Part shown: positions 1 to 29,802 of the stretch, in pieces
Numbering within the stretch: the first letter of the stretch is position 1
Layout: the number at the start of each line of letters is the position of its first letter
Assembly: GCA_019448385.1 (NCBI GenBank)
Contig: JAGTXO010000071.1
Location: 1-64,000 of the forward strand
Reading direction: 5' to 3'
DNA: 64,000 nt
Origin: Diacronema lutheri
Lineage: Eukaryota > Haptophyta > Pavlovophyceae > Pavlovales > Pavlovaceae
Program-made: the position numbers and the translations under genes
The notes under the pieces: model-generated
What the model was told of the DNA's origin: nothing
The model's input: only the letters and a program-made list of their open reading frames with translations
The model's database searches: none

Positions 1-255
1 GCCGCCGCCTCCCCCGCCGTCTCGTCGCGCTCCGCCGCCGCAGCCTCCGTCCCTCGGCCCGTCTCCGTCGCCCTCGGCCGCCGCCGCCGTCGCCGCTGCC
101 ATCGTCGTCGGTCGCGTCGGTCGCCCTCGTCGTCGCCCTCGTCGTCGCCGTCGCACTCGTCGTCGCAGTCGTGTCGCCCTCGCCCGTGCACCATGCGCTC
201 CTCACGCTCCCACACCTCGCCGCGCGCCCACCAGGCGAGCACGAGGGCAAAGCGC
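1..255 (-). other. Acidic C-terminal tail region after Fanzor domain
   Basis: Read on the minus strand, the stretch after the last RuvC motif encodes an Asp/Glu-rich run with repeated DDEGD-type residues, then Arg- and Ala-rich sequence that leaves the window. It may be the C-terminal tail of the Fanzor-like protein, or the tandem TCGTCG repeat alone may give the acidic run. No other feature is seen in these bases. Confidence 0.3.
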
Positions 256-2500
256 TCAGTGCGTCGACGTGGTGTCGGCGCCCGGCCGCGTGCGCCGCCA
301 TGTCTTGCACGTCGTAGAAGATGTTGCGCGCGGCGTTGTAGTCCGCGGTGCACGGGCTTCTTGCCTGCCCGTTGTGCACGCCGGCAGATGACGAGCGCGT
401 GCACCGTGCGCGTGCCGCCCTTGCCACTGGCAGGCGCGGGTTCTGCGCGAGCTCCGCGCCGCAGCGCTGCAGCCTGCCGCCCTTGGCGAGCCGCGGCATC
501 GAGCAGTGCATCGACGTGTACGGCTCGGGCACGAAGACGGCCGCGACGCCGCGCCGCCGCAGCTCGCGCAGCAGCCCCACCTGGAAGTCGGGCGGCGCGC
601 CCTTGGGCTGTCGCGCCCTTGTGGTCGCGCAGCCACTTGCCCACGCACACGAGCAGCCGGTCGCGCGTCACGCCGTCGACACAGTGCGCCGCGATGAGCG
701 CCTCGGCGACGCGCGCCGCGTTGGACCGCCCGCCGCTGTCGCGCCGCCAGCGCTCCTTCCGGCGCGCCGGCGCGTCGTACACGTGCTCGGCGGCGCGCTC
801 GCGCACCCGCGCGCTCTCGCGGTGGAAGGCGTGGAACTCGCCCTCGCCGAGCACCTTGGCGCTGTGCGCCTCGCCAAGCCGCGCCTCGTCCGCCTCCACG
901 CTGAACTCCTCGCCGCGCCCGTCCTTGCGCACGCGCCGCCGCGCCGCGTTGGTCTTGGCCGTCTCGCGCGCAAAGCCCGCGGCGCGCGCGCGCGCGCGCT
1001 GCGTGAACTGCCGCCAGACGGCCGCCCGCCCGACGTGCGCAGAGTAGGTGGTGATGTTGCCCATGTTCGGGTCGGCCGCGACGACGACCGCCGCCTCGAC
1101 GTCGATCGCCCGCCGCAGCTCGGAGCCGAGCGCGACGGCGATGGCGCCCGTCCGGCCGGCGCCAGCGGTGCAGGACGCCCGAGCCGCCGGCCGGCGCCTG
1201 CGCCTTCGGCACGAGGACGGTCCCGACGGCGTGCACGGCGACGCCATCTGTCACCACCGACTTGACGGGCTGCCGGCCCGGGAGCGGCACGCGCGGGCAA
1301 GCGCGCGAGGCCAACCCACGAGCGCCGCGCGTGCCACGGCAGATCGGCCGGCGGCCGCTCGCGCCCGGCGTAGTCGAAGACGCGGTTGGAGATGTCGAAA
1401 GCGCGTCGCAAAGACGCGTACCTGACGCGCACGTCCGACATCGGCGGGGTGTTGCCGTTGTGCCTGTCCACTTGATCGCTCGCCATCGTGGTCGCGCAGG
1501 TCCAGCGCCTTGAGCCGCGCGCGCAGCTCCTTGCGCTCGTCATCCGAAAGCGTCACCCAGATGGCGCTCGCGGTGAGGCGCACGTTGCGCGGCACCTGCG
1601 CGCAGCGCGCGGCGCGCGAGCGCGCGGGCGCGTGACCAACCTGGCCGCGGGGCGGCGCGCACGGCGGCGGCGCGCGCGCTTGGGCGCTCGGCGGCGGCAG
1701 CGGCAGCCGCGCCTCGCGCGCACATTGTGCGTGCGCAGCGGCGCCACATTGTACCGCGGCGGCCGTCCGGATCAGCTGCGTGTGGATGTGCGCGAGCCGG
1801 CAGAGCAGCGCCTGCCCCTCGCCACGTGCTGCAGGGTGCGGATCTGCACGAGGAAGTAGCGCGTCGTGTGCCGGTCGTAGTTCCACCTTTTCGTGGGCGT
1901 GCACTTGTAGTCGATCTTGTGGAGGACCATGTCGGGCAGGTGGCGGTCGAGCGCGGCGGGGCAGCCGACGCGCGCGCCCTCCACGTCGCCGCGCAGCAGC
2001 CGCTCGCACAGCTCGCGCACGCGCGCGTTTCGCTGCATCTCGGGCAGCGCGACGAGCGCCTCGTCGCGCTCGACTGCCGCGCGGACGACGTCGCGGAGCA
2101 GCCCGTTCACGACGCGCGATGGATGCATCAGGCACGCGGTGGACACCTGCGTCGCCTCCGCCTCGAGGATCTCCGTGAGGCCCCCGCGCAGACGGGCTGG
2201 ACGCCCTCGGCCATCTCGCCGACGGCGCGCGCCGTCGCCGCCTTGGTCTGCGCGGCGGCTTGCTCGGCGGGCTTGCCTCGCGGCGCTGCCCGTACGTGCT
2301 CTCGTCCTTGTGCCAGCCGATGGCCGAGAAGATCGCACGGACGGATCCCTTGTCCATCGTGGTCGACGTGTGGCACGCTGGTCGACGGGCCGCCCGACGC
2401 CGCGCCGACGGCCTGCGCGCTCGCCACCGCAGCCTCGTCGCGCACCACCTTGTTGATGACGCGGTACGCCTGTGTCGTGAGCCTGTGCACGGCCGCCGCG
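256..2500 (-). CDS. TnpB/Fanzor-type RuvC nuclease, frame-broken
   Basis: The translated minus strand shows the three RuvC motifs of the IS605 TnpB/Fanzor family in the right order. The first is ADPNMGNITTYS near 1050-1090 (catalytic Asp). The second is VPEPYTSMHC near 500-540 (catalytic Glu followed by the TS-x-x-C of the zinc finger), preceded by a KGAPPDFQ stretch like the Fanzor1 KG-x-P-P motif. The third is TADYNAARNIFYD near 310-350 (catalytic Asp, NAARN signature). Cys residues between motifs two and three fit the zinc finger. Fanzors are RNA-guided DNA nucleases carried by eukaryotic transposons and large DNA viruses. Upstream sequence (about 1450-2500) has protein-like composition and may be the N-terminal half. 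The coding signal moves between minus-strand frames several times, so the gene is decayed or the sequence has indels. All three catalytic residues remain readable. No guide-RNA scaffold could be identified; its usual place beside the 3' end would lie partly outside the window. Confidence 0.62.
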
Positions 2501-2877
2501 ATGCGCCGCAGCTCCTTCCGCGCACACGGGCTGCGCCGTCACCGCCTGCGGCCCCCGCGTTGAGCGTCGAGCGCTTGACCACAAAGCCCGGGAGCACGCT
2601 GCCGCGCGTGCGCGCCGTCGCGCCGCCGGCGGCGCGCGCGCTCGGCGCAGCGGGCTCGTCCACGCGCGCGCGCTCGACGCCGCGCGCGCGGGGAACGCTC
2701 GGCGCGCGCGCGCCCGCGGCGTCGCGCGCGCTCGCGGCGGCACCCGCCGCGGCGCGCTTGCCCGCGGCGCCCGACTCGCCGTGCGCGCGAAGCGGCGCCG
2801 ACGCCAATGCCGACGCCGCGCCCGCGCCGCCGCTGCCGCTGCCCGATACGCCCGCGCGCCGCTTCTGCTCGTCGCGC

Positions 2878-3045
2878 GTCTTGCGGAACTGGGCGACGAG
2901 GTCGCTGCTCACGTTGGCCTCAGGCTCCCACGTGTCGGCGCTCTCGTCGTAGCCCCGCCACCTGATCCGGAACTGGAACGTCACCTTCTTGCCCGCCTTG
3001 CGGCGCGTCGTCGACGACCGCCTCGACCTCGTACGTGCGCGCCTC
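2878..3045 (-). other. Chromodomain
   Basis: The minus strand encodes YEVEAVVDD, a basic linker, then RIRWRGYDESADTWEPE and a helix ending DLVAQF. This is the standard chromodomain pattern: a first beta strand YEVE, W-x-G-Y, the aromatic-cage Trp, TWEP, and a C-terminal helix. Chromodomains bind methylated histone tails and are used by some mobile elements to target chromatin. It sits between the large coding array upstream and the Fanzor-like nuclease downstream, and the coding signal shifts frame inside it. It could be part of the nuclease protein or the end of the preceding polyprotein. The fold call is firm; which gene owns it is not. Confidence 0.75.
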
Positions 3046-6000
3046 CTCGTCGACGCTCGCGCCCGCCGCGCTCGCGCCCGTGTCCGGCCACCCAGCGACC
3101 GTGCCGCCCAGCCTCTCGGCGGCCGCGCGCAGCTGCCGCTCGCGCTGGGCGGCCGCGGCGCCTCGCGCGACCAGCGCGGGCAGCATGCCCGCGCCGCCCG
3201 CGAGGCCGTGCGCGCCGACGCTGGCGGTCATCAGCGCGTCGAGGCACGCGAACGTTGCGAGCGCACGCGCGCCATCGTCGCCGCCGCGCGGCTGCGAGCG
3301 CACGACGGGCGATGGCCGCGGCTCCCCCTCGGCCGCGAGCAGCGGCCAGATCGCACTGGCCAGCGCGACGGCATGCGCGCCGACCGCGACGGCCACGTCC
3401 GCGTCGAGCGGCGCAAAGTCGTAGCGCACGAGCGCGGCCGGGCGCGAGTCGTCCGTCGGCCGGTCGGCGACGAGCAGCCCGACCGGGCGCGGCGGCTCGC
3501 CGGACGGCGCGGCGACGGGCACGCAGAGGAGCACGACGAGCAGGCGCGGCGTGCCGCCGAGCAGCGCGCGCGCGGCATCCGCCCCGTCGGCTCCGCCGCG
3601 CGCGGCCGCGGCGAGCAGCTCGGCCGCGCGCGTCGGGCCCAGCGCCGTGCGCGCGTCCTTGCGCGCGCGTGCGCGGGCCGTGTACGCGGCGCAGGCGTCG
3701 TCGAGCACCGCCGCGCTGGGCGCGGTGCCAGTCGTCGCCCACGCGCGCAGCGCGTCGCGCACGCCGCGTGACGATCGCCTGGTCGACCGCCGCCTCGCCG
3801 GCAGCGTGCGCCGGCGCGCACGCCGGCGGTGCGGCGGCAGGCGCGAGCGCGGGCGCGCCGTCGGCGCCGTCAACGCCGACGGCGCCGTCGGCGCGCCGCC
3901 ACGCGAGCTTCGCCTCGATCTGCTGCCGGACGGCGTGGCAGTGCCGGTCGATGCCGCGCGCGTCGTCGAGCGCGGCCAGCGCGTCCTCAGCGGCGGGACG
4001 GCCGCTCGCGTCCGCGACGGCCTGCAGGCAGAGCAGCGCGGCCGCACGCGCGTTGCACGCGCTCTGCGGCTCGGGCGCGAGCGCGAGCTCGAGCTCGAGC
4101 GGCGACGCGCCTCGCGCCGCGGCGATCGCGTCCATCAGCACGTCCAACCGCTGCACCAGCGCCCTGTGCGCGTCGCGCGGCGCGCCCGTCGACGGCGCGC
4201 GCGAGCGCGTCGCCAGGAGCCCGAGCGCGCGCGCCGGCGCGCCCGCCGGCGTGTGCAGCACGAGCAGCGCCGCGCCCGCCAAGCTCGCGTTGCGCGTGAC
4301 GAGCGCGAAGATGCGCGTCGCCTCGTGCGCGCCCACCGACGCCCAGATCGCAGCGCGATCGGCGTCCGTCTGCGCGTCGCACAGGTCGCGCACGTCGTCC
4401 GGCGCGAGCAGCGCGCCGCCGCCGGCGGAGCGCGCGACGATCGCCCGCGCCTCCGCCACGAAGACGGCCTGCGGCAGGTCGGCGTGGCGCGCGTCGACGA
4501 TGGCGCGCGTCGCGTGCACGCCGAGCTCCACGCCGCGGTAGAAGGCGCGCGCGTTGGCCGCGCGCGCGTGCGCCGGCCGTCCGTCCGCGTTGCGCCTCGC
4601 GCGCGCCTGCTTGCTCGTGCGCGCGAGGCCGTCGCGTGGCGGTGGCGGCAGCGTGGCGAGGAAGCGCGCGGCGGGCGGCGGCGCGCGCACGCCGCGCTGC
4701 CGCCGTGCGATGGCCGCGAGCCGCCGGCCCGCCGCGCTGCCGCCCGCGCCGACGTGCTGCCGGCGGCCGAGCGCCGCCGGTGGCGGCGGCGGCGGCGGCG
4801 CGGCGGCGGGCGGCGGCGCGACGGCGGGCGGCGGCGCGGCGGCGGGCGGCGGCGCGGCGGTGGGCGGCGGCGCGGCGGCGGGCGGCGGCGCGGCGGCGGG
4901 CGGCAGCGGCGGCGGCGCGGCGGCGACGGCAGCACCAGTCGGCTTGTCCGCCCACGCACCCGAGACTCTGTCCCAGACCTTGCCCCATGGCGCGCGCCCA
5001 CGCGGCCGCGCGAACTGCCCCGGCTCGAGCGCCTGGCCGCGCTTGGCGGCGGCGGCGGCGGCAGGGGGCGGGCGGCCGGCGCGCCAGTCGAAGACAGGTG
5101 CAACCGTGGCGGCAGGCGCCGAGTGCCGCGCGTCGGTCACAGAGCGCGTGGTGCGCGCGGCGACCGTGGCACGCCTGGCGGGCGGGCGGTGAGCAGCGCC
5201 CGCCGGCGCGCCGGCGGGCGCGGCCGCCTCGAGCCCGGCGGAGGCGCCGCGCTTGCGCTTGCGCGTGCCGCCGCGCGTGCGCCTGCGCGCGCGCCCGCCG
5301 CGCGCCCGTTCGGCCTGCGCGTCGCCAGCCGCGTCGCCGGCCGCGTCGCCGCGCCGCACGTAGACGACCGCGAACGCCTCCTCGCCGGTCCCGTCGACGC
5401 CGCCGCGCGCGCGGCGCAGGACCGACCGCCACTGCAGCCGCCGCGCGCGGCCGGGCTCGCACGCAAACCAGCGCCCACCGCGCCTGACGACGGCCACAAA
5501 GTCGTCGTCGCGCCGCCCGCGCCGGCGCGTGCGCAGCAGCACGCACTGCACGTCGAGCCAGCCCTCGTGCCAGTCGGCCGTGCTGGGGGCGACGCGAATC
5601 GACTGCGGGAGCTCGACGCCAAAGCCGGCGAGGCGCACGATGTGCGCGACGATGACGCTCGAAATGGCGGGGGCGCTCGACGGGTCGCCCGCTGCAGCGA
5701 GCACCGCCCCGCCCCAGTGCTCACGCGTGACGCAATCCGCGTCCTCGACGTGCACGTGCGCCACGCTCGCGCCGAGCTGGTGCAGCAACGCGCAGATGTC
5801 GGCGTCGACCGTCCTCTCCTCCTCGGCCGCCTCGGCCGTGCCGCGGGCGGCGGCGTCGCCTGCCGGCTGCCCGAGGTACGCGATCGCCCGCTCGACGGCC
5901 GCGCGCTCCGCACGCGCTGCGCTGTCGATCGCCGCATTGCCGACGGGCGCGCGCAGCGCCGCGATCGCGTCTTGCAACGCCGTCGCGTCGCCCGTCGCCG

Positions 6001-8833: not shown

Positions 8834-10448
8834 ACTCGGCGGCGCCCGCCGCGTGCGCGCACCACCCGTGCACGCGCGACGTGGGCGCGTCCACGGCGCG
8901 CTGCACGACGAGCACCGCCGGCCGGTCGACGCAGCCGAGGCTCACCGCCGCGTGCTTGCCCTCGAGCAGCGCCGCCGCCGCAGCCTCGACCAAGGCGTCA
9001 TCAGGCGCGTCGCCGACGACGACGGCACAGCCGTCGCCGTACTCGGCCTGCATCGCGGCGACGCACGACGCGACAAAGTCGCCGCCCGCGGCCGCCGCGT
9101 GTCGCGCCGCCAGCATCCGGCGCGCGATGGCAAGCCAGACGTACTCGGCCGGCGCGCGCGCGGCGCGCGCGCGAGGCGCGCCGGCCGCGCCGCGTGCGCC
9201 CGCGCGTGCGCCTCCAGCGGCCGCAACGGCCGAGGCGGCTGGAGCGGCGGTGAGCGTGCGCCGCGCGCGCTTCGCCGGCCGCGTGATGGGCGATGCACCC
9301 GCCATCGCACCGCCCGCAGCAGCCGGTGCGGCCGCCACAGCGCCCGCCGCAACGCCACTCGTCACGACGCCCGTGGCGGGCGGCGCGGCGGCGGACGTGG
9401 CCGCCTCGACGGGCGTCGCGCAACTACCGCCAGCGGTCGCGGACGCGCCCGGCGACGCGTCGGCGAGGAGGTGGCGCAGCACGCCGCGCGCGAGCGCGAC
9501 TCGCACGGCGAGCGTCAGCGCGCGCAGGCGGTCGGAAGGCGAGGCGTCGCGCTCGGCGTCGGCGGACGTGGCGGCAGCAGGCGGGGCGGCGGGCGGCACG
9601 GCGGCGGGCTGGGCGGCCGCCGGCGCAACCTCGTCGGCCTTGGCCAGCCAGACGAGCCCGGCGACTGCGAGCACGACGCTGTACGCGCCGACATCGTCAC
9701 CCGCAACGCGCGCCAGCCGGGCGTGGGCGTCGGCCTCGGACACGGCGACGTGGAAGAGCACGTCGTCGCGGGCAGCTTGCTCGGCAAACTGACGCAGCTG
9801 CTTGGCCATCGTCACGCCGGCGACGCACGCCTCGCCCGCCTCTGCCTCGACCTGCTCGTCCTGGCCGATGGCGGACGCGCCGGCCTCGGCGCCAGCGTCG
9901 AGTGTCCGGCGGCGCTCGAGGGCGAAGCCACGCACACAGACGCGCTGGAGGCCGCCGAGCGCGCCCGCCTTCTCGTGCAGCGCGCACGACAGCTCGACCA
10001 CCGAGTCCACGCGCCTCGCGGCGGCGCCCCCCCGCTCGCCGCGCGTGGCCGCGCGCACGACGAACACCGTGAATTGCGCGCGCTTCGCCGCGCGCGCCGA
10101 CGCGCACGCGTGCTTCAGGAGCCGGCAAAGCGCGGGCCTTTGCGCCGCTGCGCCCCGCGTGCACAGCAGCAGTTGGCCGCGCTCGTCGCCCAGCTCCTGC
10201 TCGACGGCGGCCTCGAGCGCGTCGTCCGTCAAATCGCCGTGCTCCGTCGAGGCGAGCGCGCGCGCAGCCGCGAGCGCCAGCTCGCCTGCGCCCGCGCGCC
10301 GCCGGCGGCGCGCACCGGCGGGCGCGTGCGGCGCCGACGCGTGTGACGACGCCGCCGCGTCCGCGCGCGCACACGCGGCGCGCAACGCCTCACGCGCCGA
10401 GGCGGCCGCGCGCGCCCTGGGCGCGAGCTTCAAGAACGTGCGCGCGGC

Positions 10449-10518
<70 letters not shown>

Positions 10519-13500
10519 TCGCCCGCGTCGCCGGCCGGCGGCGGCGGTGGCGGCGGTGGCGGCGCGGCCACGGCGGCGGCAGCAGCGGCGGCGGCGGCGG
10601 TGGCGGCGGCGGCGGCGCCCAGCGCGGGCGGCGGCGGCGTGGCGGCGGCGGTGGCGGCGGCGGTGACGCCAGCGGCGGCCTTGGCGCCGCGCGTCTGCGG
10701 CGGCGTTTCGGCGCCATCGGGGCTGCCCCCGCCACGCACCGCGCTCGTGACCGCGCAGACGCCGCCCGGCGCACGATCGCTGGCCGCGCCGGTCAGCGCG
10801 ACGCGGAGGCGCTCGCCGACAGCGTACATGTCCGCCACGCTGAACGTGCGCGGCGCGGACGAGCAGCCCGCCGCGGCGAGCGCGTCGTTGAGCGCGCCCA
10901 CTATCGCGAGGCCGCACGTCGCGCCACGCTGCGCCGCCTCGTTGAGCAGCAGCGCGCGGCGCACGCGCGAAATGTCGAGACCCGCCGCGTGCAGCGTGGC
11001 AGTTATCGCCTTGGCGAGCATGAGCGCCTGCCTGCAGGGCGACGCGAGCGTGTCGACGAGCACCGCGTCGTAGCGATGCTCGCCCGCGCGCGCGACGCGC
11101 ACAAGGCGCAACGCGGTGAAATGGCCGGAGGCGAGCTGCGCGCCGTCGTCACCGCCCGCGCCGCCGCGCTCGTCCGACGGGCTCCACACGCCGATGACAG
11201 CCTGCGTTGTCGCCTCGCTGCGCAGGCGGTGCAGCAGCGCGGCGCGCTCGGCGTCGTCCTGAAACACCGCGGGTTGCGCGGCGAGCGGCACGTGGCAGAC
11301 ATGCCCGCCGCCGGCCTGCCCGTGCACGCGCAGCACGACCTCGCAGCACGCGTCGACGGTTGAGGCGAGCATGTCGCCGCTGGCGATGCGCTCCACCTCT
11401 GCCTGCGGGAGGCCGGCGCTCGCGGCGGCGGCGGCCAGCCGGCGCGCAGCCGCGTCGCCCGCCCACGCAAGCAGCGCCGAGTTGGCGGGTTGGAGGGGAA
11501 GCTCAAGGGCGGCTGGTTCGGTGGCGGTAGCCTCGTTGGCAACGGGCACGTTGGCGGTGCGCGCGTTGGCGGCGGGCGCGGCGGCGATGGCTGGTGGGGC
11601 GGAAGACGCGCCCGCGGCGGCGGGCGCGGACGCGGCAGCGGCAGCGGCTAGTGGGGCGGGGAAAACGCCGTCGGTGGCAGGCGCGGAGGCGAATGCAGGA
11701 GCAACTAGTGGGGCGGGAAAATCGGCGGCAGGCGCGAAGGCGGATGCAGCAGCGGCTAGTGCGGCGGGGAAAACACCGTCGGCGGCAGGCGCGAAGGCGG
11801 ATGCAGGAGCGCCCAGCGGGGCGCAGAAAACACCGTCGGCGGCAGGCGCGAAGGCGACAGCAGCAGCGGCCAGTGGAGCGGAGGCGCAGGGCCACGCGCG
11901 CGCCAGCCGTGCAAGCCCAAGCCGCGCGCGAGCGACGCACGCGCCGATGGCCGAGGCGGCGGCGCAGGCCACGACGTGGCCTGGCACCGGTGTGGCCAGC
12001 CGCTCGCGGGTGTGCACGTCGAGCCGCGCCCCACGCCAAGAGCGGCGGCGCGCTGAACGGAGGCGCGCGACCCCGATCGATCCGCCCGCGCACGCGCGCG
12101 CCGGCTCAGTGTGGCCAACGCGCGCCGCTATGCAAGGCGCGCGCGCGATAACGGCGGCTGTCGGCCGTGGCGTGCGCGTGGCGGCGCCGCGGCGACGGGC
12201 GCGGCACACGAGCCGCTCGGGCGCGCCGCCGCCGCGCGGCACGATGTCGAGCAGCACGGTCACGCCGCGCGCGCGCGCGACCGCCGTGCACGCGAGCCGC
12301 ACGGGCAGCGGCGGCCCGTCCGGGCGCGCGAGCGCCGCCACCTCGGCGTCGGTGAGGCTGTGCAGCTCGCGGCGCGCGCGCGCGAACGCGGCGATGTCCG
12401 CGCGCAGCTCCGCGTCCGTGCCGAGCGCGGCACGCGCGTGCACGGGGAGCGACGCGCGCAGCGCGTGGAGCACGCCGCCGCGCGCGCCGCGCGGCGCCGG
12501 CGCGCGCTCGCGCTCAGCGCGCGCGGCGCGCGTGAGCTCGCGCACCGCGCGCGCGAGATTGCGCCGCGCGGCCGCGACGGGAGGGCTAGGTGCGCGCGCG
12601 CGCCGGTTGTAGCGCGGCCGCGCCGAGTCGAGGGGCGGCGGACGCGGTGCGTACGCCGCGGCGCGGCCCGCGCGCCAAAAGGCCGGCGGCGGGCGCAGCT
12701 CCGTCGCGTCGACCGCGGCCGCGAGCGCGCCGAGCGCGGCGTCGCTGTCGCCCGCCGCGTCGGCCGCGTCGACGAGCACGAAGAGCGCGCCGAGCGCGCG
12801 CGACGCGGCCGCCTGCGCGGCGGTGGGGCGGGCGCAGGCAGCGACGCATGCGGCCGCCATGCCGCGCGCCGCGGCGAACGCCGGTGACGTGACGGCCGCG
12901 CCGATGGCAACGGCGGCGGCGGCGACGGTGGAGGCGGCAGCGCCGGCGATGGAGGTGGCAGCGGCGGCGGCGCTTGCCATCGCGCGGCGCGCGAGACGCG
13001 AGGCGCCACCGACCGCCGCCGCCGCAGCGCGCGCTGCGCGCGCGCCGGTGGCGCGCATCGTCGCCGCGCCAGGCGCCGCCGCGCCGACGCCGCCGGCGCC
13101 CGCGCCGTCGCCGCTCTCGGCCGTGCAGGGCTCCGATGGCGAACCCGGCGTGCGCTGGCGCGTGATGCGCGCGCCGAGGCGCGCGCTCCGCGCCGCGCGG
13201 CCGGCGACGTCGAGGAAGCGCCGTGCGCGCGCCGCGCGCAGGCCACGCGCGCGCGGCGGCGCACCGACAGGCGCCGAGCGCCGCGGCGCGCACGCCGGCG
13301 CGTCGCTGTCGGGTTGCGCAGCGCGCGCGCGGGAACTCGGCGCGGCGTGTGCGGGCGGCGGGCGCGCGCCCGCGCGGCGCAGAGGCGCGAGGCGCCGGCC
13401 GCAGACGAGGCGTGTGCGCAACCAGGACGGCGAGGGCCGCAGGGCGCCGTCGACGTCGCGCATCGGCGGGCCGCGAGCCCGCCGCGCAGCCGTGCGGCGC

Positions 13501-15038
13501 GCGCGAGGCGCTCGGCGGCGCGCGCGCCGCACGGCGCGCGCGGCGGCGCGCACGCCAGCGACGGCTGCGGCCACGCCGCGCGCCAACACGGCCGCGGCGT
13601 GCGCCATCGCACCGAGCACGGCGCGTGGCGCGCCGAGCAAGCGCAGCAAGCGCGACGCCGTCGCGCGCGCCGGCGCACCGTGTGCAGGGGCCTCGCCAGC
13701 GCCAGCACCGACGCCGCCATCGCCGCAGCCGCAGGTGGCGTCGCCGCCGCCGCAGGCGTCGCGACGGACGCCGCCGCCGCCGAAACAACCGCCGCACACG
13801 TCGCCGCCGACGTTGCCACCCCAGCCGCCGTTGCGTGCGCAGGTGGCTGCGGCGCGTGCGTGCGGGAGGCGTGCCGTGCGGCGCGCATCACACGGGCTGC
13901 GCGACGCGAGCGACGCCGCCGGGGTCCCCGCTGCGCCAGGCGCGCCGTGCGCGCCAGCCTCGCCGGCCTCGCCGGCGCGCGGTCGCGCGCTCGCCTCGAC
14001 GTGGCCGCCTCCGCCGCCATCGCCGCCGTCGAACCGGGCGGCGGAGGGCTGCCGCTCGAACCGCTCGTCGGCGTCGGCCGCCACCGCCGCCTCGCGCTCC
14101 GCCGCCGCGGCGGCCGCACGGCGCGCGTGGCGGAGCGCGCGGCCGCCGTCCGCTGCGCGGCGTGGCGGCGCGGGCGCGGGCTTCGGCGCGCGCGGCCCCT
14201 CGGCGCGCTCGCGGAGCACGGCGAGCGGCGTGCCCGTGGCGACGCTCGTGCAGACGCGCCGCAAGGCGGCGCTTACGCACGCGTGGACGACGCGCGCCGT
14301 CCGCTTGTCGGCGGCGCGCGCGGCGCGGCGCGCGGCCTTGGCGGCGGCCTTTTTGGCGCGCCTCTGCTCCGCCTGCTCCGACAGCGCGCGCGCCTGGCGC
14401 TCGGCTGCGAGCGCGTCCTCGGGCGAAACGGTCGGCCTCGGCGGCCGCGCGCGCGCGCTGCGACGCTGCGCGCTGCGGCGGTCGGACGGCGGCTGCCGCG
14501 GCGGCGAGGACGGCGAGCGCGAGCTCGGCGTGGGCGACCAATCGCCGCTGACGGTTGCGAGCGGCGCAAACGGGTTGTCGTCCCCGCGACCCGCGGCGTG
14601 CGACAGTGCACGCGGCGTCGGGCGCCGGCCGACCGCTGGCGGGCCCCACTCGGACGGCGGCTCCGAGGGCGAGCGCGCCGTCGGCGCCGCGCGTTGCGCG
14701 GCCGGCGGCGCCTCCCGGTCCAGCGCCGCCTGCTCTCTCGCCGCGGCCTGCTCGTCACCCTCCGGCACGCCACGCGGCGCGAGCACCGCGGTGGCGCAGC
14801 GCGTCGCGTTGAGCAACGCCGCCTCCATCTGCCGCACGCTGGCCTTGGCGCACGCCACACCCTGTCTCGCCCGGCGCAGCGCCTCGTGCGCGCGGCGCAC
14901 ATCCGCGTCGGCATCTTCGCGCATGCCAAAGTGCGCCTGTTGCAGCCGCAGGTCCGCAGGGCGCCCCTGCGCGCGAGGGGCACGGGCGCGGCGGCGCGCA
15001 GGTGACGGAGCTGGCGCGCCGTTCTGCGCTGCGCGCAC
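7542..15038 (-). CDS. Giant coding array, segment B: tandem Ulp1-like modules and Ala-rich linkers
   Basis: This minus-strand frame is open for about 7.5 kb and appears to be the true frame from roughly 14.9 to 8.2 kb. Between 15 and 11.5 kb it is Ala/Arg/Ser-rich with long helical stretches, and the imperfect tandem repeats at about 11.6-11.9 kb give a string of similar Ala-Pro units of about 20 residues. From 11.4 to 8.5 kb it holds three modules related to Ulp1 proteases, separated by poly-Ala and Pro-rich linkers, including a (GGC)n run at 10.44-10.52 kb that encodes about 25 Ala. No signal peptide or membrane segment was noted. It joins segments A and C by small frame changes rather than gaps. 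No homologue of the whole chain is recognised. Confidence 0.5.
8560..9110 (-). other. Ulp1-like module lacking catalytic Cys (fourth)
   Basis: The translation has GDFVASCVAAMQAEYGDG at its start and VDRPAVLVVQRA, VHGWCAHA, then APDQAGVAALRVLYALV. The Gln and the following hydrophobic helix match the Q-x-x-C-G helix of Ulp1-type proteases, but Gly-Val stand where Cys-Gly should be. Tentative. Confidence 0.3.
9790..10250 (-). other. Ulp1-like module lacking catalytic His (third)
   Basis: The module starts LTDDALEAAVEQ, then has a strand AQFTVFVVRAA, RRVDSVVELS (Asp position), and AEAGEACVAGVTMAKQL (Cys position). The order matches the second module, but the position expected for His is occupied by Gln or Phe. 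Called from similarity of layout to the neighbouring module; a pseudo-enzyme or unrelated sequence are both possible. Confidence 0.35.
10850..11400 (-). other. Ulp1/C48-like cysteine protease domain (second, catalytic motifs intact)
   Basis: The translation runs VIGVWSPSDE, then a loop, SGHFTALRLVR (candidate catalytic His), LVDTLASP (Asp), NEAAQRGATCGLAIVGAL (oxyanion Gln and Cys followed by Gly). Order and spacing match the Ulp1/SENP and adenain-like clan CE proteases. Ulp1-type proteases cleave SUMO or other ubiquitin-like proteins, and related enzymes in mobile elements process element proteins. An N-terminal piece DMLASTVDACCEVVL recurs in weaker form in other modules of the array. Confidence 0.55.
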
Positions 15039-18000
15039 GCCAATCGACGGGCGCGCGCGCGGCGGGGCGCGCGCGCGCGCGCGCGCGCGCGCTGCCTACC
15101 CAGCCGCCGGCCGGCTCGCGCGAGCGCGCCAGCTGCTCCGCCGCCTCGGCGTCGAGCACGCGCTGCTGCGCCTCCTCCTCGCCCAGTGCAGCGAGGTGCA
15201 GCCGGCGGGCTGCCTTGCGGCAGTTGCCCTCCGCCTTGCCCACGGCCTTGCGCGCCGCGTCGACGGGGTCGTCGTTGGCTCTGGCGCGCCTGCGCTTGCC
15301 CTTGTCGGCGGGCGGCGGCTTGGCGCGCTGCAGCGTGCCGAGCGCGTCGTCGGCTCCGCGCGCGGCCGCCCGCGGGCGGCGGGCCCCAAAAAGCGCACCG
15401 GTCGCCGTGCGCGCCGCGCAAGCAACGACCAGCGCTGACATGCCGGCGAAGACCGCACCGCCCAGCGCCACGGTTGCCACGATGCGCAGCGTCCCGTGCG
15501 CAAGCTGCGCTGCCTCCGCCGCTTTGGCGGCCTCGCGCGCGCGCGCATCGGCGGCTCTCATCTCGTGCAGCAGCCCGGCCGCGCCGCTCGCGCCGTCGCG
15601 GCCGCGCGCGAGCTCGCACAGCACCGCCGCCGCGCGCCGCGTGGGCTCGCGCGCGAGCAGCTGCGCGCCGCCGTCGGGGCGCAGCTTCTCAACGAACTCG
15701 ACAAACGTCGCGTCGCGCCAGAGGGACATGCGGAAGGCCCTGTGCACCGCCCCCTCCTGCTCGCGCATCCGCCGTGCCGCCCGCCTGCCGTCGCGCGCGT
15801 GCGCGTGCGCGGCCGCGTCGAATCCCGCGACGCCGCGCTGCGCGTCGCGCGCGGCCGACGACGGCGCCGCCGCGCTGCCCGCCAAGGGCGCCGCAGCGGC
15901 GACGCGCGCGTGCGGAGCGACGGGATCGCCGGCGGCCGGCGGCTCGGCGCGCTGCGGCGTGCCGTTTGCTCCGCGCGCGGCCGTCCCGGGGGAGATGGCC
16001 GCGATGGCGCCGCCAGCCGCGCCGCGCGCCAGCCACGCGCATAGGCTGCCGACGAGCTCGCCGAGACCCCCGACGGTCGCCGCGGCGGCGAGTGCGCCGG
16101 GCTTGCCGGCCGACAGCGGCTCGCGAGCGTCGTCGTCGCAGCCGCCGGCACCCGTCTTGGCGAGTGCGTCGCGCTCGCCCTCGACGCCCGCCACGACCGC
16201 CGCCCCTCCGTCGTCCGCCGCGCCGGCCGCGCGCGCGGCCGGGCGCAGAGGAGGCGTGCCGGTGCAGCCGTCGCCGCTCGTCTTCGCCGTTTCCTCCACT
16301 TTGGTCACTTCGTCGCCACCTGCGCCATCTCCGACGCCGGGGCCCTTGGTCACGCTTGCCGCCATGCGCGCCGTGCCCGCCGGCCAGCCCGCCGACTGCT
16401 CGAGCGCGGCGGCGAGCGGCGCGACGCGCGTCGACTCGGGCGCGCTCTCGTCATCGGGCTCGAGCGCGTTGTGCAGGCGCGCGAGCGCGCGCTCGACGGC
16501 CGCGGCGCCACTGCCGGGGGCGCGGCTCGCCGCGCGCACCGCGCGCCGCCAGGCCGGCGCGAACATGAGCGCCGGCTCGAGCGCCGCGAGCGCGCGCGCC
16601 TCGCGCGCGTCGCTCGCGCCGAGGCGCGGCGGCACGCGCGCGGCTCCGCGCGGCGCGGTGCCTCGGAAGCGTGGGCTCAGCGTGTAGGCGAGGTGCTGCG
16701 GCACGCCGCGCGCCTCCGCGCGCGCGCGTCCGTCCTCGACCTCGCGCCGCGCCTTCGCGATCGCCGGCGTGGCGCGCGCGAGCCAGTCGGGGTCGGCGGG
16801 CAGGTGGATCACGACGAGAATCGGCGCCCAGTCCAGCCGCGGGTTCTTGTGACGGTCGGGCACGACCCACACGAGCAGCACCGTGCCCTCCGCGCCGCAC
16901 GCCGCCTCGTAGATCCTGGGCTGCGAGCGCCAATCGGGCCTGACGCGCAGCGCCCGCGCGTGGTCGATGGCGGCGGCGCGGTCGCCATTGAAGTGAACCG
17001 TCGTCACCTCGCCGATGACGGACCGGCCGGACCGCCAGCAGAACACCGCGTCCGCCGACCCGCCGGCGATGGCCGCGAGCGATTCGGGCGCGGCGAGCCG
17101 CGGCAAGCCCTCGAAGGCGGCAAAGTCCTCGTGCGCATTGTACACGCCGCCCCAGCCGTCGTGCGCGTACGCGCGCGCGGCCGCTCGTACCGCGCGCGGC
17201 TGGTTCTCCACGCCCGACGTCATGTGCCATGTCGTCCCCGCGAAGCCGGGCTCGCCCAGCTCGGCCCGCACGACGGTACCGTACCCCGCGCCCTGCGTCG
17301 GGGCGGCGAGGTGGTGCATGCCCGCGCCGGTCACGCCCTCCGTGCGCTGCCGCGTGACGATCGTGCCCGTCGCGTGCGCGAAAAGCGTGTCGACCACGGC
17401 GGGCGCGCGCCCGCTGTTCGCCCGTAGCCGCGCCCTGCCCGCTTTTAGCTGCTCGGGGTCCTTGGCGTCGTACACGCGCGCGTCCGCGTCGCCCTCATCA
17501 GGCGCAGTGTAGACGCAGCGGCGTTCGAGCGGCGCCGAGCCACCGCCGTCCGCCGCCGCCGGCGAGGTTGGCGCCGCGCCCGCCGCCACCGCGCTCGTCG
17601 CCGCCGTGCCCGTCGCCACCGCCGCAGCCGCCGCGCCCGCGGGGTCGTCGTCCCCGTCCTCCGCGCCCTCCCCGTCGTCAGCGGTGGTGGCGTCGCCATC
17701 GTCCCCGTCGCCCTCGCCCCCGCCGAGGCTGCTGAATGGTCGGGGCCCCCACGCCGAGGCGGCGCGCCGCTGCGGCGCACGCGGCGGTGGCGCTCGCGAC
17801 GGCGGCCTTGGCGCCGCCGCGCCGCGCGGCCTGGCCGCCGTCGACAGCGCGCGGCCTGCAGCGCCCGTGAGCGCGTCGAGCGCGGCCGTGCGTGCGATGC
17901 GGTCGTCGGGCGCGCGCAGCGCCGCCTCGACGGCCTGCAGCAGCCCGTCGGGCGCGGATCCGCCGACACTGGCATCGCACGCCTCGGCGAGCCGCGCGGC

Positions 18001-18774
18001 CTCGGCGAGCCGCGCGGCCTCGCGGGTGAACGGGCCGAAGCGCCTGGCGCGGTCGCCGAGCAGAGCGCCGATGGCGGCGCGGAGCGTGCGCGCGCGGGTC
18101 TCCTCGTACGCGGCCGTCGTGAGGCGCGCGAGGCGCGCGTCCAAAGCCTTCTTGATGTCGACAAGGACACTCGCGCGGCGGCCGTAGAGCGTCGATGCGC
18201 TCGCCACGACCTCGGCCGCGACTGTTGCCGCGGCGAAGCAACACGCGGCCCCACTCTGCGGGGGCGCCTTGAAGGCATCGATGGGCGGCGCTGTTCTGCC
18301 GATGCGCTGCGCAAGCTTCTTGATGAGCACGCCGGCCGCCGTGGCGTACGCCGATTCGCCGTTGCCCAAGGTGCGCGAATCGGCGAGCAGGGCGAGCGCG
18401 GCGCCGGGCGGCGCGCCGCGCTGCGCGGGCGGCGCGAGGAGCAGGTACGCCGCCGTCCAGTGCACGAGGCCGCTGGACGCGCGGAGGCAGAGCGGTAGCA
18501 CGACCACGAGCACCTGCCCAAACCGGTCCGCATCCGCGCATGCTTTGCGCAGGTTGCGCAGCGCCACCTTGAGCGCATGCTGCGAGCACCCCGTGTCGCC
18601 CACCCTAACCCTGCTCGTGCCGAAATCCGCGTAACGCAGCAGGGCGATGAGGCAAGTGGATGGGACCACGTGGGGGTGGGTATCTCCCGGCGACAGAATG
18701 GTGCTGAGGGCCAGCGAGAAACTGTCCGAGCCGCCCCGCCCGCCGGGCAAAGCGTCCTTCACGGAGTCCTCCAT
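14755..18774 (-). CDS. Giant coding array, segment A: Ulp1-like protease, nuclease-like domain, membrane segment
   Basis: The minus-strand frame opens with ATG at 18,774 and is the likely true frame to about 15 kb. The N-terminus (MEDSVKDALPGG) is followed by an intact Ulp1-like protease module (18.7-18.2 kb), an acidic Gly/Asp-rich linker (about 17.75-17.55 kb), a nuclease-like domain (17.3-16.7 kb), a low-complexity stretch, and one strongly hydrophobic segment of about 27 residues near 15.5-15.4 kb (IVATVALGGAVFAG core) that could span a membrane. Coding continues into segment B by a frame change. This ATG is the most plausible start of the whole array, because the bases upstream (18.8-22 kb) show no coherent coding signal. 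Confidence 0.55.
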   Translation of the reverse strand: MEDSVKDALPGGRGGSDSFSLALSTILSPGDTHPHVVPSTCLIALLRYADFGTSRVRVGDTGCSQHALKVALRNLRKACADADRFGQVLVVVLPLCLRASSGLVHWTAAYLLLAPPAQRGAPPGAALALLADSRTLGNGESAYATAAGVLIKKLAQRIGRTAPPIDAFKAPPQSGAACCFAAATVAAEVVASASTLYGRRASVLVDIKKALDARLARLTTAAYEETRARTLRAAIGALLGDRARRFGPFTREAARLAEAARLAEACDASVGGSAPDGLLQAVEAALRAPDDRIARTAALDALTGAAGRALSTAARPRGAAAPRPPSRAPPPRAPQRRAASAWGPRPFSSLGGGEGDGDDGDATTADDGEGAEDGDDDPAGAAAAAVATGTAATSAVAAGAAPTSPAAADGGGSAPLERRCVYTAPDEGDADARVYDAKDPEQLKAGRARLRANSGRAPAVVDTLFAHATGTIVTRQRTEGVTGAGMHHLAAPTQGAGYGTVVRAELGEPGFAGTTWHMTSGVENQPRAVRAAARAYAHDGWGGVYNAHEDFAAFEGLPRLAAPESLAAIAGGSADAVFCWRSGRSVIGEVTTVHFNGDRAAAIDHARALRVRPDWRSQPRIYEAACGAEGTVLLVWVVPDRHKNPRLDWAPILVVIHLPADPDWLARATPAIAKARREVEDGRARAEARGVPQHLAYTLSPRFRGTAPRGAARVPPRLGASDAREARALAALEPALMFAPAWRRAVRAASRAPGSGAAAVERALARLHNALEPDDESAPESTRVAPLAAALEQSAGWPAGTARMAASVTKGPGVGDGAGGDEVTKVEETAKTSGDGCTGTPPLRPAARAAGAADDGGAAVVAGVEGERDALAKTGAGGCDDDAREPLSAGKPGALAAAATVGGLGELVGSLCAWLARGAAGGAIAAISPGTAARGANGTPQRAEPPAAGDPVAPHARVAAAAPLAGSAAAPSSAARDAQRGVAGFDAAAHAHARDGRRAARRMREQEGAVHRAFRMSLWRDATFVEFVEKLRPDGGAQLLAREPTRRAAAVLCELARGRDGASGAAGLLHEMRAADARAREAAKAAEAAQLAHGTLRIVATVALGGAVFAGMSALVVACAARTATGALFGARRPRAAARGADDALGTLQRAKPPPADKGKRRRARANDDPVDAARKAVGKAEGNCRKAARRLHLAALGEEEAQQRVLDAEAAEQLARSREPAGGWVGSARARARARPAARAPVDWRARSAERRASSVTCAPPRPCPSRAGAPCGPAAATGALWHARRCRRGCAPRARGAAPGETGCGVRQGQRAADGGGVAQRDALRHRGARAAWRAGG
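16700..17300 (-). other. Possible PD-(D/E)XK nuclease-like domain with altered active site
   Basis: The translation includes GGSADAVFCW, then SVIGEVTTVHFNGD, then Q and a strand VLLVWVVPDRH. The Asp, the ExT in place of ExK, and the following Gln and strand follow the order of PD-(D/E)XK nucleases such as the YqaJ-like domain at 6.1-6.9 kb. The Lys is missing, so it may be inactive or belong to another fold. Confidence 0.28.
18200..18700 (-). other. Ulp1/C48-like cysteine protease domain (first, catalytic motifs intact)
   Basis: The translation has FGQVLVVVLPLC, then GLVHWTAAYLLL (catalytic His followed by Trp), ALLADSRTLG (Asp-Ser), and APPQSGAACCFAAATVA (Gln, then Cys). The HW, DS and PQ-x-G-x-x-C elements are the hallmark of Ulp1/SENP proteases in order and spacing. 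It is the first recognisable domain of the giant array. Substrate is unknown; self-processing of a long polyprotein or removal of host SUMO-like tags are both possible. Confidence 0.6.
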
Positions 18775-20678
18775 CTGCAGACTGTGGGCACGTCAGTGTC
18801 CGGATGGCGGCCCGGATGATACTTGGGAGAATTTACATGATGCCCTGGAGAATGCCCCGCTCTCCCACAACCAGGACCCGCCAGCGCGCCGAGCCTACTC
18901 GTTTGCCCGCGCCGCCTCTCTTTGCGCGCCCGAGCGCGGCCTCCGAGCGCGGCCAACGTCCTCCGGGGGCGTGCATCGTGGCTGCTCGGAGGGGCTGCGA
19001 CGCGGCGAAAGCTCGCTGCGCGGCCGCAACGTGAGCGCGCGCGCGCGGCCGCGCGCCGGCCTGCGCTGCTCTGCACGGCCGCGCGCCGGCCTGCGCAGCC
19101 TCGTCGCGCAGCGTGAGCGCGAGCGCGCGCGAGGTGAGCTCGGCGGATGGGTGCGCGGCGGCGTTGGCGGCGGGTGCGGCGGCAGGCTGGGCGGCGGGTT
19201 TGGACGGAGAGTGTCGGGGAAGAACGGGGCGCATCCTGGCTGGGAGTTGGACGGCGCCCACCACGCGCTGGCGGATCCTGGTTGCCACCACCACCCCCCC
19301 CCCCCCCCCCGGAGACGAGGACCAGGGGCATGGCCGACTCGCTGCGCCGCACAGCGCGCGGCGCGCGGCATGCTGCGCGACCTCAAGCACATCCAGCCGC
19401 GCTCCGCCCACGCAACGCGCGCAATGCCGCGTTGCACTGCAGGTGTGCACGTGCGGCTCTCACGCGCACTGTGTTGCACGAACGGCATCACGCCACCGAG
19501 CTGCGTCCGGACCACGCGCCGCGCGCAGGCGACCACACAGGGGCGCGCCGCGCCGCGCGTGCGCGCCCTCGCAACCGTTGCAGCACGCTCTGCCTTGCAC
19601 TGCGCCGAGCCGCCGCGCGCTGTGCGCGTGCATGCAGGGCGCACGCGTGCGACGAAGCGCGCGCGCGGCGAGGCGCGCGGGCGGCTCGCTGCGCGGGCGG
19701 CAACGCGCCCAGCTGCGCCCAGGCCAGGCGCGCGCCCGCGAGTGCCACCGGGACGCACTGCCCCCGCCGGGGTCGCCGCGCGCTCTGTGTGTGCGCTCGC
19801 GCGCTGCGAGCGCGGCGGAACGTTCGTGCATGGCGCGAAGAGCGCGGCACCCGAAGACGGCTGCCCCGAGCCCGCGCCGGGTGGCAGCGAGCGGCGGCAC
19901 CTCCTCGGCGAGCCCGCCCCGCGCCTTCCCCTCCACGTGGCGTTTTGAGGCAGACGGACACGCGCCCACACTGCGACTGGGCACGCTGCTCGAGGCAGAC
20001 ACGCACCCAACGCGCGCGCACCACGCGCCCGCGTCGGCGGGCCGGTGTGAACGAGCGAGAGCTCGGTGTCGCCAACGGGGGCACGGGCGCGACTTCGGTC
20101 CGCCTCTCGACGGACGCAGGCGACGCTGCCGGGAACTTCCCCGACGCCTGCACATCCAGGGCTTCGAGGTACAGAGCTGGGCAACAGTGCCGCTCGTCAC
20201 CGATGAGGCGGCCAAGCTCGCTATCCTTGCTGCCCTCGGCTCCACCAAACAGCCGGGCGACCCAACGGTTCGTGATCGCCTGGCCGCCAGGTGCGAACCG
20301 CGCCCGTGCAAGCGCTTCACCCGCATTCTCCGCCCCGCTGCGGACGTCCGCCTGCCGGCCGCGAACACGGCCGGTGCGCGTTGCCGCCTGGCCCAACACG
20401 AAAACCCGCCCGCCCCCGAGGCCGCAGGTCCTACCTGCCCAAGCGCAGCCCAACGGCACGCAGACAGCCCGCCTTGGCAACCGACTCGTGCGCGAGCGCT
20501 CCGCCCTCCACAAGAGCCTGCCCCACGCCACCGCCGACGCGGAGCCAGCGCAGCCGACGCCCCTCCGCGACGCTCGCGCCGCAAGGCGCAAGGGCCCCGG
20601 CGAGACGGCGTCAACCAAGCCCGCCGCTGGCACAGCGCCGGCACCCGGAGCCCACCCCAAGCCCCCGCGCACGCCTCG

Positions 20679-20723
<45 letters not shown>

Positions 20724-21285
20724 ATCGGCGGACCGATTGCGTTTTGGTGCGCCAGGCTCAATGCGCCATCGCAGTGGCGGGCCCGCAGACGCAGACGCTG
20801 ACATGCCCAACGCTGGGCACTGAGGCCGCAGGCCGGCCCTCCTGGACCTGGCGGGCGAGCTGCCCGCGCAGCGGCCACGCGAGCCTCGCACTGACCGTGG
20901 CGGTCGCTGCCACCGTGATAGCTGCGGGTGCGGCGGCCTTGGCCCCAACCCCATCATCCGTCTTCATCCCCGCCCTGCTCGCGCTCGCGGCCTACGTCGG
21001 CAATCCCTGCACCGGGATCCGCCCCGCGAAGTCCACACAAGACTTATCCGTGCTGCACGCCAGCCGCGCGCGCCGACGCGCGCCGCTCCCACACGCTCAC
21101 CTCCGTTTCCGCGGGCGGCCCAACGCCCCCCCCCCCCCCCCCCCCCTCCCCCCCCCCCCCCCCCCCCCCGGCAGGCGGCCATCGAGCCGCATTAGCACAC
21201 CCGCCCGGGGCCTCCCGCCGCACCCGCAGCGGCTCGGCGCCTTGAATCCTCCCGTCCCCCGGGGTGAGGCCTTCAACCCGGGCCC
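18775..21285. other. Gene-poor stretch with homopolymer tracts
   Basis: No gene is supported here on either strand, although random frames stay open because of the GC content. It contains a C run near 19,297-19,310, a C run of about 40 at 20,680-20,722, and a C run interrupted by a few T at 21,126-21,171. A short minus-strand piece near 20,150-20,300 has balanced amino-acid use but matches nothing recognised. It separates the giant array from the USP-type gene. Confidence 0.5.
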
Positions 21286-21420
21286 AGCGCGCTCCGACTG
21301 CCTCACGCGCGCCAGCGCCAACCTCGGCGGCATGGTAGACCCCGAGCGAAAAGCCGCACTTCTCGCCGTCCTCGTCAGGCGCAAGTACGTTATCCTGCTC
21401 CTACTGCCGACGCGGCTCCC
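21286..21420 (+). mobile_element. Possible LINE endonuclease remnant
   Basis: The plus strand reads TRASANLGGMVDPERKAALL then VLVRRKYVILLL. This resembles the start of the apurinic-type endonuclease of non-LTR retrotransposons, where a strand with Asn-x-x-Gly is followed by a helix and a strand ending in the Gln-Glu-Thr region. Only this short piece is recognisable and no reverse transcriptase follows. It could be chance. Confidence 0.22.
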
Positions 21421-21712
21421 GCGCGCGCGGACTACTACGCCGGGCAGATCGCCGCAGACGCACGTGAGTGCACACGTGCGGACAAGGCGCACACGCTCGA
21501 CGTCCAGTTAGCGCACGTGCACGTGCGCGCCACTGGTCACATTTGAGCGTCCGTGCTCGCCCACAGCGTCGCCATCCACAAGATGCGCGCTGGAGCCATC
21601 CAAGCAGGGCTCTGCCTGCTCGGCTTCCGCAAGGCAATTTGGGCCGCGGACAGCGGACAGCGGACGGCGTGCGCGTGCGAGGTGCGAAAGGAGGAAGAAG
21701 GTAGGGAGAGTT

Positions 21713-21743
<31 letters not shown>

Positions 21744-22034
21744 GGGGGGGGCACAGCGGCCGCCGGAGACGAGGACGCACTCACCGCTGTTGGCAATGCG
21801 CGCGTCACGGAGACAACTTGGCGGGCCTCGCACGCAGCTGGGCCGATCGCCGCCGTAGAGATGTCTGCAGCCGTCTCCGCGATGCCGATCGTCGCATCTG
21901 TTGGCACCGCTGCCATCTGCCGCACCCGCGGCCAGGCTGCCGGCAAGGTCGGCGCGTCGGGCTCCGAGCTCGGCCACGCAGGCGATGCGGCCGACGGCGG
22001 TGACGCTGAGCCCAGCGCCGGGTCCAACGGCTCC
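21421..22034. other. Gene-poor stretch with GT and poly-G tract
   Basis: A (GT)n run at 21,712-21,726 leads directly into a G run of about 25 to 21,751. The C-terminal end of the USP-type gene may extend into this stretch on the minus strand, where an Ala/Pro-rich frame stays open. Nothing else is supported. Confidence 0.4.

Positions 22035-29769: not shown

Positions 29770-29802
<33 letters not shown>

Follow-up and report, generated by a model that had tools for sequence, protein, structure and literature searches.

A recently amplified 31-kb transposable element of the alga Diacronema lutheri with a predicted giant gene carrying exonuclease, chromodomain and Fanzor domains

The window analysed here is a 64-kb stretch of the haptophyte alga Diacronema lutheri (contig JAGTXO010000071.1; C2:1-64000 in our labelling), and the genome searched for comparison comprises 43,492,796 bases on 103 contigs (labelled C1 etc.). 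As described in a preceding reading of the sequence alone (the sequence-only reading), the minus strand of the window is coding-like in one succession of frames from an ATG at position 18,774 to its left edge. The G+C periodicity at codon positions tracks these frames. That reading placed the unit at 1-18,774. The array is real, but the unit reaches about 30,595, includes a PIF1-like helicase and a fragment of a ubiquitin-specific protease (USP), and is present in about 200 copies. The coding array sits within a larger mobile element of about 31.0 kb, of which the window carries positions 1-30,595, the last 0.55 kb or so of the 3' end being cut off by the contig start. The main comparison copy, on contig C71, was reached by a search of the genome contigs with the YqaJ profile and is about 31,015 bp long. 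Window positions 1-24,357 align with C71:182,307-158,001 in three pieces of 98.6-99.6% identity, and positions 24,358-30,525 align with the same copy at 99.7% identity. At about 30,595, the right boundary and 5' end of the element, the flanks of different copies diverge. The termini are CTATATA(C/G)GG...GACCATCTATAC; the 3' terminus of other copies reads ...GGCTTGACCATCTA and is followed by TAC in 21 of the 22 junctions. With its 31 kb it is a giant among DNA transposable elements, and it is not assigned to a family. No published description of it was recognised in the literature surveyed.

Further copies with defined ends, for which the sequence-only reading had proposed a search, are abundant. 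Exact matches to the 20-base 3' end number 212 in the genome, and the 36-base 5' end, with at most one mismatch, is found 197 times, while the reversed-pattern controls for both ends gave no occurrence. The flanks differ among the copies read, and the pattern is that of a transposable element, many dispersed copies having the same ends and different flanks. Separate host genes were rejected as an explanation, the whole unit being present about 200 times. Pairing of ends was performed for the 89 5' ends and 99 3' ends listed on contigs C1-C45, with a limit of 40 kb; 64 of these 5' ends pair with a listed 3' end at most 40 kb away. The 31.0-kb bin holds 30 of the pairs and the 21.5-kb bin 11, the others measuring between 12.6 and 37.8 kb. 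The 64 listed pairs total 1.80 Mb (mean, 28.1 kb). By extrapolation, the whole family would amount to roughly 5 Mb, more than one tenth of the genome, if the remaining copies are similar. The available text of the genome paper gives a GC content of 73.25% and 22.9% repeats, with long terminal repeat (LTR) elements making up 32.7% of the masked bases, and words beginning 'transpos' were not found in its main text (PMC8379373).

For the identity of copies, 30 chromodomain loci were sampled, four of which had no element match, leaving 26 including the reference copy, and 3.15 kb was compared. All but one of the 25 compared copies are 99.65-99.97% identical to the reference, the outlier (L010) being 97.8% identical. 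The copies are near identical and their spread is therefore recent: the element has been amplified recently to about 200 copies. The shorter class of about 21.5 kb recurs (11 of the 64 listed pairs, for example C4:1055355-1076767). Several of its copies carry their own PIF1 variant in a 463-aa frame; in one sampled 4-kb stretch the alignment of exon 2 (see below) gave 96.2% and 99.8% identity with no stops among aligned codons, gapped codons being skipped. The element also stands at the edges of the assembly. Five of the 99 listed 3' ends start at contig base 2-4, and at least three further contigs (L039, L043 and L044) terminate at an element end. Since several contigs stop exactly at the element boundary, for example at the starts of C1, C5, C6, C10 and C12, some of the remaining assembly breaks are likely to be due to this repeat.

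Because the G+C content of the element is about 80%, long frames by themselves are weak evidence of a gene. In 100 simulated 31-kb sequences of about 80% G+C the longest frame averaged 1,419 aa, with a maximum of 2,727 aa, and long frames were rejected as stand-alone proof. In the C71 copy a frame of 1,345 aa overlaps one of 4,518 aa, a third frame has 633 aa, and two predicted GT-AG introns (133 and 130 nt), both ending in GCGCGCAG, join the three frames with no internal stop. The predicted exons in C71 have 1,225, 4,414 and 575 codons, the last including the stop codon at C71:182,446-182,448, and would specify a protein of 6,213 residues. The position of intron 1 is a choice, since many GT-AG pairs fit the frames; the pair was picked for its acceptor, identical to that of intron 2. 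Intron 2 is better supported, being 128 nt long in 17 of the 20 copies read and 130 nt in the other three, a 2-nt variation that breaks the unspliced frame and spares the spliced one. The join of exons 2 and 3 restores a stretch that we take to be Fanzor-like. Taken together, the two introns suggest the splicing of one gene, and the single giant gene of the sequence-only reading holds as such a model.

The integrity of the gene was surveyed at 150 of 260 chromodomain candidates, the four best of which are not element copies. Among the remaining 146 scored matches the frame is at least 4,400 aa long in 83, 4,000-4,399 aa in 19, 3,000-3,999 aa in 13 and shorter than 3,000 aa in 31. In comparison with C71, the window copy shows 34 gap openings and 22 mismatches in positions 1-4,319, as against 2 gap openings and 35 mismatches in positions 4,320-14,317. 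Since the breaks below 4.3 kb lie at a contig end and the indels are absent from C71, they are probably sequencing or assembly errors, in line with the sequencing indels proposed at the outset; real decay is possible.

The exonuclease, chromodomain and Fanzor domains named in the sequence-only reading are present in the predicted protein. The YqaJ profile scored 28.2 bits in the C71 copy, above the cut-off of 22, and 16.3-20.5 bits in the window copy, below it, so that the match above cut-off for a YqaJ/RecE-like exonuclease comes from C71. In the window copy PHROG 434 (RecE-like exonuclease) scored 58.9 bits, and TIGR03033 scored 29.9 bits, below its cut-off of 68. The Chromo profile scored 36.3 bits in the window and 48.1 bits in C71. 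For the C-terminal domain, the Cas12f1-like TNB profile scored 28.3 bits in C71, above the cut-off, and 19.7 bits in the window, below it. NCBIfam guided_TnpB, which has a cut-off of 100 bits, scored no more than 13.8 bits, and matches to PDB chains were marginal (Cas12f1, E-value 0.3). The strings ADPNMGN, VPEPYTS, CPAC and RDYNAARN stand in one frame in all 20 copies read and were assigned by eye to a RuvC site and a zinc finger, following the Fanzor motif of RuvC acidic residues and zinc finger given in the available part of its description (PMC3627910). By these strings, read as RuvC acidic residues with a C4 zinc finger and RD, and by the TNB match above cut-off in C71, the C-terminal domain was confirmed as a Fanzor, a putative RNA-guided nuclease.

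Other domains of the sequence-only reading did not withstand the profile searches. The C48/Ulp1 protease family gave no match in Pfam, NCBIfam or PDB searches, neither for the first Ulp1-like protease nor for the further Ulp1-like modules, and Ulp1 was rejected as an established assignment. What was found is a triad pattern, H[WFY]..D[ST]..QxGxxC, composed after inspection of the sequence, which occurs twice; among 2,000 shuffled sequences one match was found in four and two matches in none. The nuclease-like domain that had been placed after the first Ulp1 had no profile support either. In one of 45 comparisons, uncorrected for their number, its region aligned with the YqaJ region better than all of 200 shuffles (z 3.9). 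The idea that the tandem Ulp1 modules are evident repeats of each other was rejected, the best two of the 45 comparisons having z 3.9 and being reached by 1 and 0 of 200 shuffles (uncorrected).

Upstream of the array, the element contains the USP fragment and a PIF1-like helicase split over two frames (Table 1). The best PDB chain for the first part of PIF1 is Helraiser (E-value 8.8e-7). In the genome, 150 of 414 PIF1 candidates were scored and all 150 matched; the two fullest matches lie elsewhere, at C86:1002892-1003428 (144.5 bits, profile positions 2-192) and C96:2724-3368 (130.1 bits, positions 5-218), and are possibly host PIF1 genes or a helper acting in trans. The domain N-terminal to PIF1 had no credible PDB match, and sequence searches gave no fold for it. 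Further upstream, inverted repeats nested in one another and containing seven-base repeats similar to AGGGTGT form a complex fold-back region, which may be a nested insertion. For window 18.7-30.7 kb, 85 of the 90 listed frames were scanned (the five others being 75-90 aa long), and for window 1-18.7 kb a further scan covered 86 frames of at least 100 aa. The 81 further frames of the upstream half and the 86 further frames of the array showed only chance-level Pfam matches. In these Pfam scans of the element frames no transposase, Rep, recombinase, reverse transcriptase, polymerase or capsid was found. PADLOC gave two weak matches only. No phage relatives were found for the Fanzor part, the part searched, and no relatives of the element were found in viral contigs in four scans.

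Table 1. Features of the element copy in the window, with the basis of each
Feature	Position	Strand	Basis or remark
Element copy	1..30595	-	C71 identity, 5' boundary, and 3' end from other copies
Predicted exon 3	1..1595	-	C-terminal Fanzor part; 3' end missing from window
Fanzor domain	1..2300 (upper limit by eye)	-	TNB match at window 2-667
Predicted intron 2	1596..1723	-	128 nt, GTGCGCGCGA...GCGCGCAG; C71 equivalent 130 nt, C71:180,594-180,723
Predicted exon 2	1724..14966	-	4,414 codons in C71; frame of the window copy disrupted by length differences near 8.0 kb and repeatedly below 4.3 kb
Chromodomain	2880..3032	-	Chromo profile
YqaJ/RecE-like exonuclease domain	6320..6733	-	Pfam YqaJ and PHROG 434 profiles
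C48/Ulp1-like triad pattern 2	10914..11123	-	HF...DT...QRGATC; pattern only
Predicted intron 1	14967..15099	-	133 nt, GTAGGC...GCGCGCAG
Predicted exon 1	15100..18774	-	1,225 codons; open frame 14,755-18,792; donor GTAGGC at 15,099; stop-free in C71
C48/Ulp1-like triad pattern 1	18241..18462	-	HW...DS...QSGAAC; pattern only
UCH fragment (USP)	22686..22952	-	33.5 bits, profile positions 2-100 of 254
PIF1-like helicase	25503..26146	-	Split: frames 25,910-26,146 and 25,503-25,952
Conserved domain N-terminal to PIF1, fold without assignment	26255..27079	-	Two relatives, 41% and 32% identity
Fold-back region, about 890 bp	27636..28522	-	AGGGTGT/ACACCCT repeats
5' junction	30588..30595	-	[flank]-CTATATAC-GG..., element orientation

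The junctions were read for the mode of insertion. Among 14 insertions with both junctions read, 13 show no target-site duplication (TSD), with at most six shared bases near the junctions, mismatched pairs of junctions reaching seven; the remaining insertion has a 12-bp TSD placed precisely at the two junctions, and CTATATAC is present in the target restored from it. All 16 of the 5' junctions carry TATA and 15 of them TATATA, the TATA being either target or element sequence. We read these junctions as insertion at TATA sites, usually without duplication. No inverted copy of the element's last 15 bases was found near its 5' end in the window, and a terminal inverted repeat was not seen. A palindrome matching at 16 of 18 positions lies close to the 3' end, and a 5' hairpin was recognised by eye only. 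Between the Fanzor stop and the 3' end there are 405 nt, of which the terminal 251 nt fold with z -2.07, 6 of 200 shuffles being at least as stable; the fold is no more than a hint. This is the layout expected if a guide RNA crosses the 3' junction and the TATA serves as target-adjacent motif. A short repeat ending in GCTGTCCTGACGTAAGCGCCGTTAGTATA (at most one mismatch) occurs at 158 sites, for example C4:196630-196658 and C71:245318-245346; it adjoins several insertions, and its reverse strand resembles an intron end by eye (TACTAAC...CAG).

The element was compared with the established classes of mobile DNA. It is not an LTR retrotransposon, no reverse transcriptase match being found in the scanned frames and the two end sequences being different. 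Neither terminal inverted repeats nor a fixed-length TSD, as in a DDE cut-and-paste transposon, were seen. For a Polinton or an integrated virus, PolB, integrase and capsid had no match in the scanned frames, and the statement of the sequence-only reading that the unit is not a Polinton, a retroelement or a plain provirus holds by these profile scans. A tyrosine recombinase of the Crypton or Starship type had no Pfam match in the scanned frames, a diverged enzyme in the orphan parts of the giant protein being possible. The features of a canonical Helitron were not found either: the element has PIF1 only, no HUH Rep (RepHel) was detected and the ends are not 5' TC and 3' CTRR.

The closest likeness is to Fanzor-bearing elements of other organisms. 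The available part of the Chlamydomonas description reports Helitron2 elements with Fanzor1 that insert after TTTT with no or variable TSD, among them CRe-1, CRe-2 and CRe-3, which are most likely non-autonomous (PMC3627910). As far as these are described there, the D. lutheri element resembles them in having a Fanzor without its own RepHel, a fixed short T/A insertion motif, full-length ends that mostly lack a TSD and sometimes have one, and a palindrome near the 3' end. It differs in its length of 31 kb, in TATA instead of TTTT, in that asymmetric terminal repeats were not established, and in the predicted fusion of Fanzor to a protein of about 5,600 residues with exonuclease and chromodomain. 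Another likeness is to Spu-1 of Spizellomyces punctatus, as given in the available text of its report (PMC10432273): a Fanzor element between whose ends no transposase was found, with a guide RNA on the 3' flank of the gene and, for SpuFz1, a target-adjacent motif (TAM), CATA, that resembles the TATA found here; copying via a cut of the sister chromosome is discussed there. Spu-1 has inverted repeats (PMC10432273), which were not seen in the present element, and the present element has many extra domains. According to the accessible parts of two papers, Helitrons and Helentrons carry added RPA, OTU cysteine protease and endonuclease domains (PMC6431247, PMC4067079); they share with the element a PIF1-type helicase, cysteine-protease-like domains (here a motif only), the capture of extra genes and the usual lack of a TSD, and differ in the Rep domain, not found here, and in their TC...CTRR ends. 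Polintons or Mavericks, as far as described, fall in the same size class of 15-40 kb (PMC6431247) and differ in that no PolB, integrase or capsid match and no terminal inverted repeat were seen in the element. As to size, Spu-1 is reportedly much smaller than the D. lutheri element.

From these observations we favour, at slightly better than even confidence, a recently amplified 31-kb transposable element whose coding part is mostly one spliced gene for about 6,200 residues and which spreads by a Helitron2-like route combined with guided cutting and copying. Copies would arise by a replicative, helicase-dependent, Helitron2-like process at TATA sites, with Rep, and perhaps the helicase too, supplied in trans or diverged past recognition. 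The 405-nt tail behind the Fanzor would hold the scaffold of a guide RNA. We propose that this RNA extends across the 3' junction, the guide being the DNA adjoining the 3' end of the element and the TATA of the 5' junction serving as TAM, an arrangement by which the Fanzor would cut the sister or homologous chromosome at its empty site. Resection of the break by the RecE-like exonuclease may follow, and recombination would copy the element back. Tethering of the protein to particular chromatin may be the role of the chromodomain, and maturation of the polyprotein that of the protease motifs.

Several results weigh against this reading. PIF1 is split over two frames (53.3 and 87 bits) in both the window copy and C71. 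Most of the scored PIF1 matches in the genome show the partial pattern of the element (profile positions 76-219, in frames of 686 or 509 aa), and the database protein P0004, 100% identical to the element PIF1, stops at the same frame end. This split, with the same end in the listed copies and in P0004, indicates that the gene is either broken or contains introns that were not recognised, and the helicase may be dead. Codon periodicity is evidence of a coding past only. Two comparisons of copies with enough changes gave a ratio of nonsynonymous to synonymous substitution (dN/dS) of about 1 (0.0175/0.0177 and 0.0090/0.0088), while another, 0.0009/0.0048, rests on three differences; the mismatches between window and C71 in exon 2 are distributed over the codon positions as 15/10/15. 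Purifying selection between copies was rejected on the basis of dN/dS, and neither these ratios nor the distribution of mismatches gives a sign of selection on single copies. For exons 1 and 2 no homologue was found at E-value 0.01 among 5.8 billion proteins, within the word and length limits of the search. The 3' tail had no Rfam match, and a known RNA family was rejected. Of the features that define Helitron2, insertion beside a fixed short motif, normally without TSD, was observed, and a RepHel of the Helitron2 clade was not found, as is the case in the described non-autonomous members. No Rep/HUH domain was detected in the element, and Helitron_like_N matches once genome-wide, on another contig. 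The published Rep motif was not found in the element, one plus-strand match having four mismatches. A candidate asymmetric terminal inverted repeat is not significant, since among 2,000 shuffles 8/9 was reached in 290, 9/10 in 106 and 10/12 in 104. Because Rep was not found and the asymmetric inverted repeat is not significant, the element was not filed as Helitron2.

A 326-aa frame at C63:35738 (L057 1435-2415) contains the sole Helitron_like_N match, of 84.9 bits. It was rejected as an evident partner sharing the 5' end of the element, no exact 5' end being found on C63 among the matches listed (those for the 5' end reaching C68 and those for the 3' end C46).

The same weaknesses lend some credit to a tentative alternative, by which the element is non-autonomous cargo, the Fanzor polyprotein being a passenger or a module of self-preservation while replication is provided by an unrelated autonomous Helitron or other transposon. 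The lack of a transposase in the scanned frames, the split PIF1 of both copies and a dN/dS of about 1 are in agreement with it, as are the candidate helpers elsewhere in the genome, namely the Helitron_like_N gene on C63 and the fuller PIF1 genes at C86:1002892 and C96:2724. We consider it doubtful; the listed matches place no exact 5' end on C63, and the giant frame is still long in 83 of the 146 scored copies.

It is unlikely that the element represents an undescribed superfamily of giant mobile elements of eukaryotes in which the polyprotein of about 6,200 residues, its RNA-guided Fanzor covalently joined to protease motifs, RecE-like exonuclease and chromodomain, is itself the mobilising machine, acting by guided cutting at sites flanked by TATA, resection and break-induced copying with no DDE, HUH or tyrosine enzyme. 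Less likely still is a new class in which the polyprotein moves the element by Fanzor cutting, RecE-like resection and annealing, and RNA-guided break repair, without any conventional transposase. Fanzor and the exonuclease are indeed the only recognised DNA-processing activities in the intact C71 gene; TATA stands at the 5' junction, and the 3' junction adjoins the Fanzor tail. Guided cutting, however, explains copying into known empty sites and not some 200 different insertion sites, and an annealing protein was not identified. YqaJ and PIF1 also occur in large DNA viruses. That the element is the remnant of an integrated virus (a relative of Polintons or giant viruses) which lost its capsid genes is very improbable, no capsid, PolB, integrase or packaging ATPase match being found in the scanned frames and no relatives in the four scans of viral contigs, even if Fanzors are also reported from large DNA viruses in the available part of the literature (PMC3627910).

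Two observations concern other sequences of the genome. A second multi-copy Fanzor family gave 13 matches (150 of 306 candidates scored), each with a TNB score of 43.9 bits, in frames of 113-1,779 aa, at C1:154701, C4:1222915, C4:1240130, C9:378667, C25:226266, C69:510041, C69:650235, C71:952894, C75:1073490, C78:99939, C85:60775, C85:901819 and C89:783182. In the window outside the element, positions 46938-52045 (5.1 kb) are a tandem array in which a 24-base unit is repeated 212.6 times with 82% matches; the array lies within very long frames on both strands (2,364 aa on the plus and 1,670 aa on the minus strand).

Transposons of many kinds carry Fanzors, whose benefit to the transposon is unsettled. 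In the present element a Fanzor is predicted to share a single very large protein with an exonuclease and a chromodomain, an unusual combination. The element makes up a large part of a compact genome and its spread is very recent; its presence at several contig ends is relevant to all users of the assembly. With about 200 near-identical copies in a culturable alga, definable junctions and predicted guides, the role of a Fanzor in the spread of its element is directly testable.

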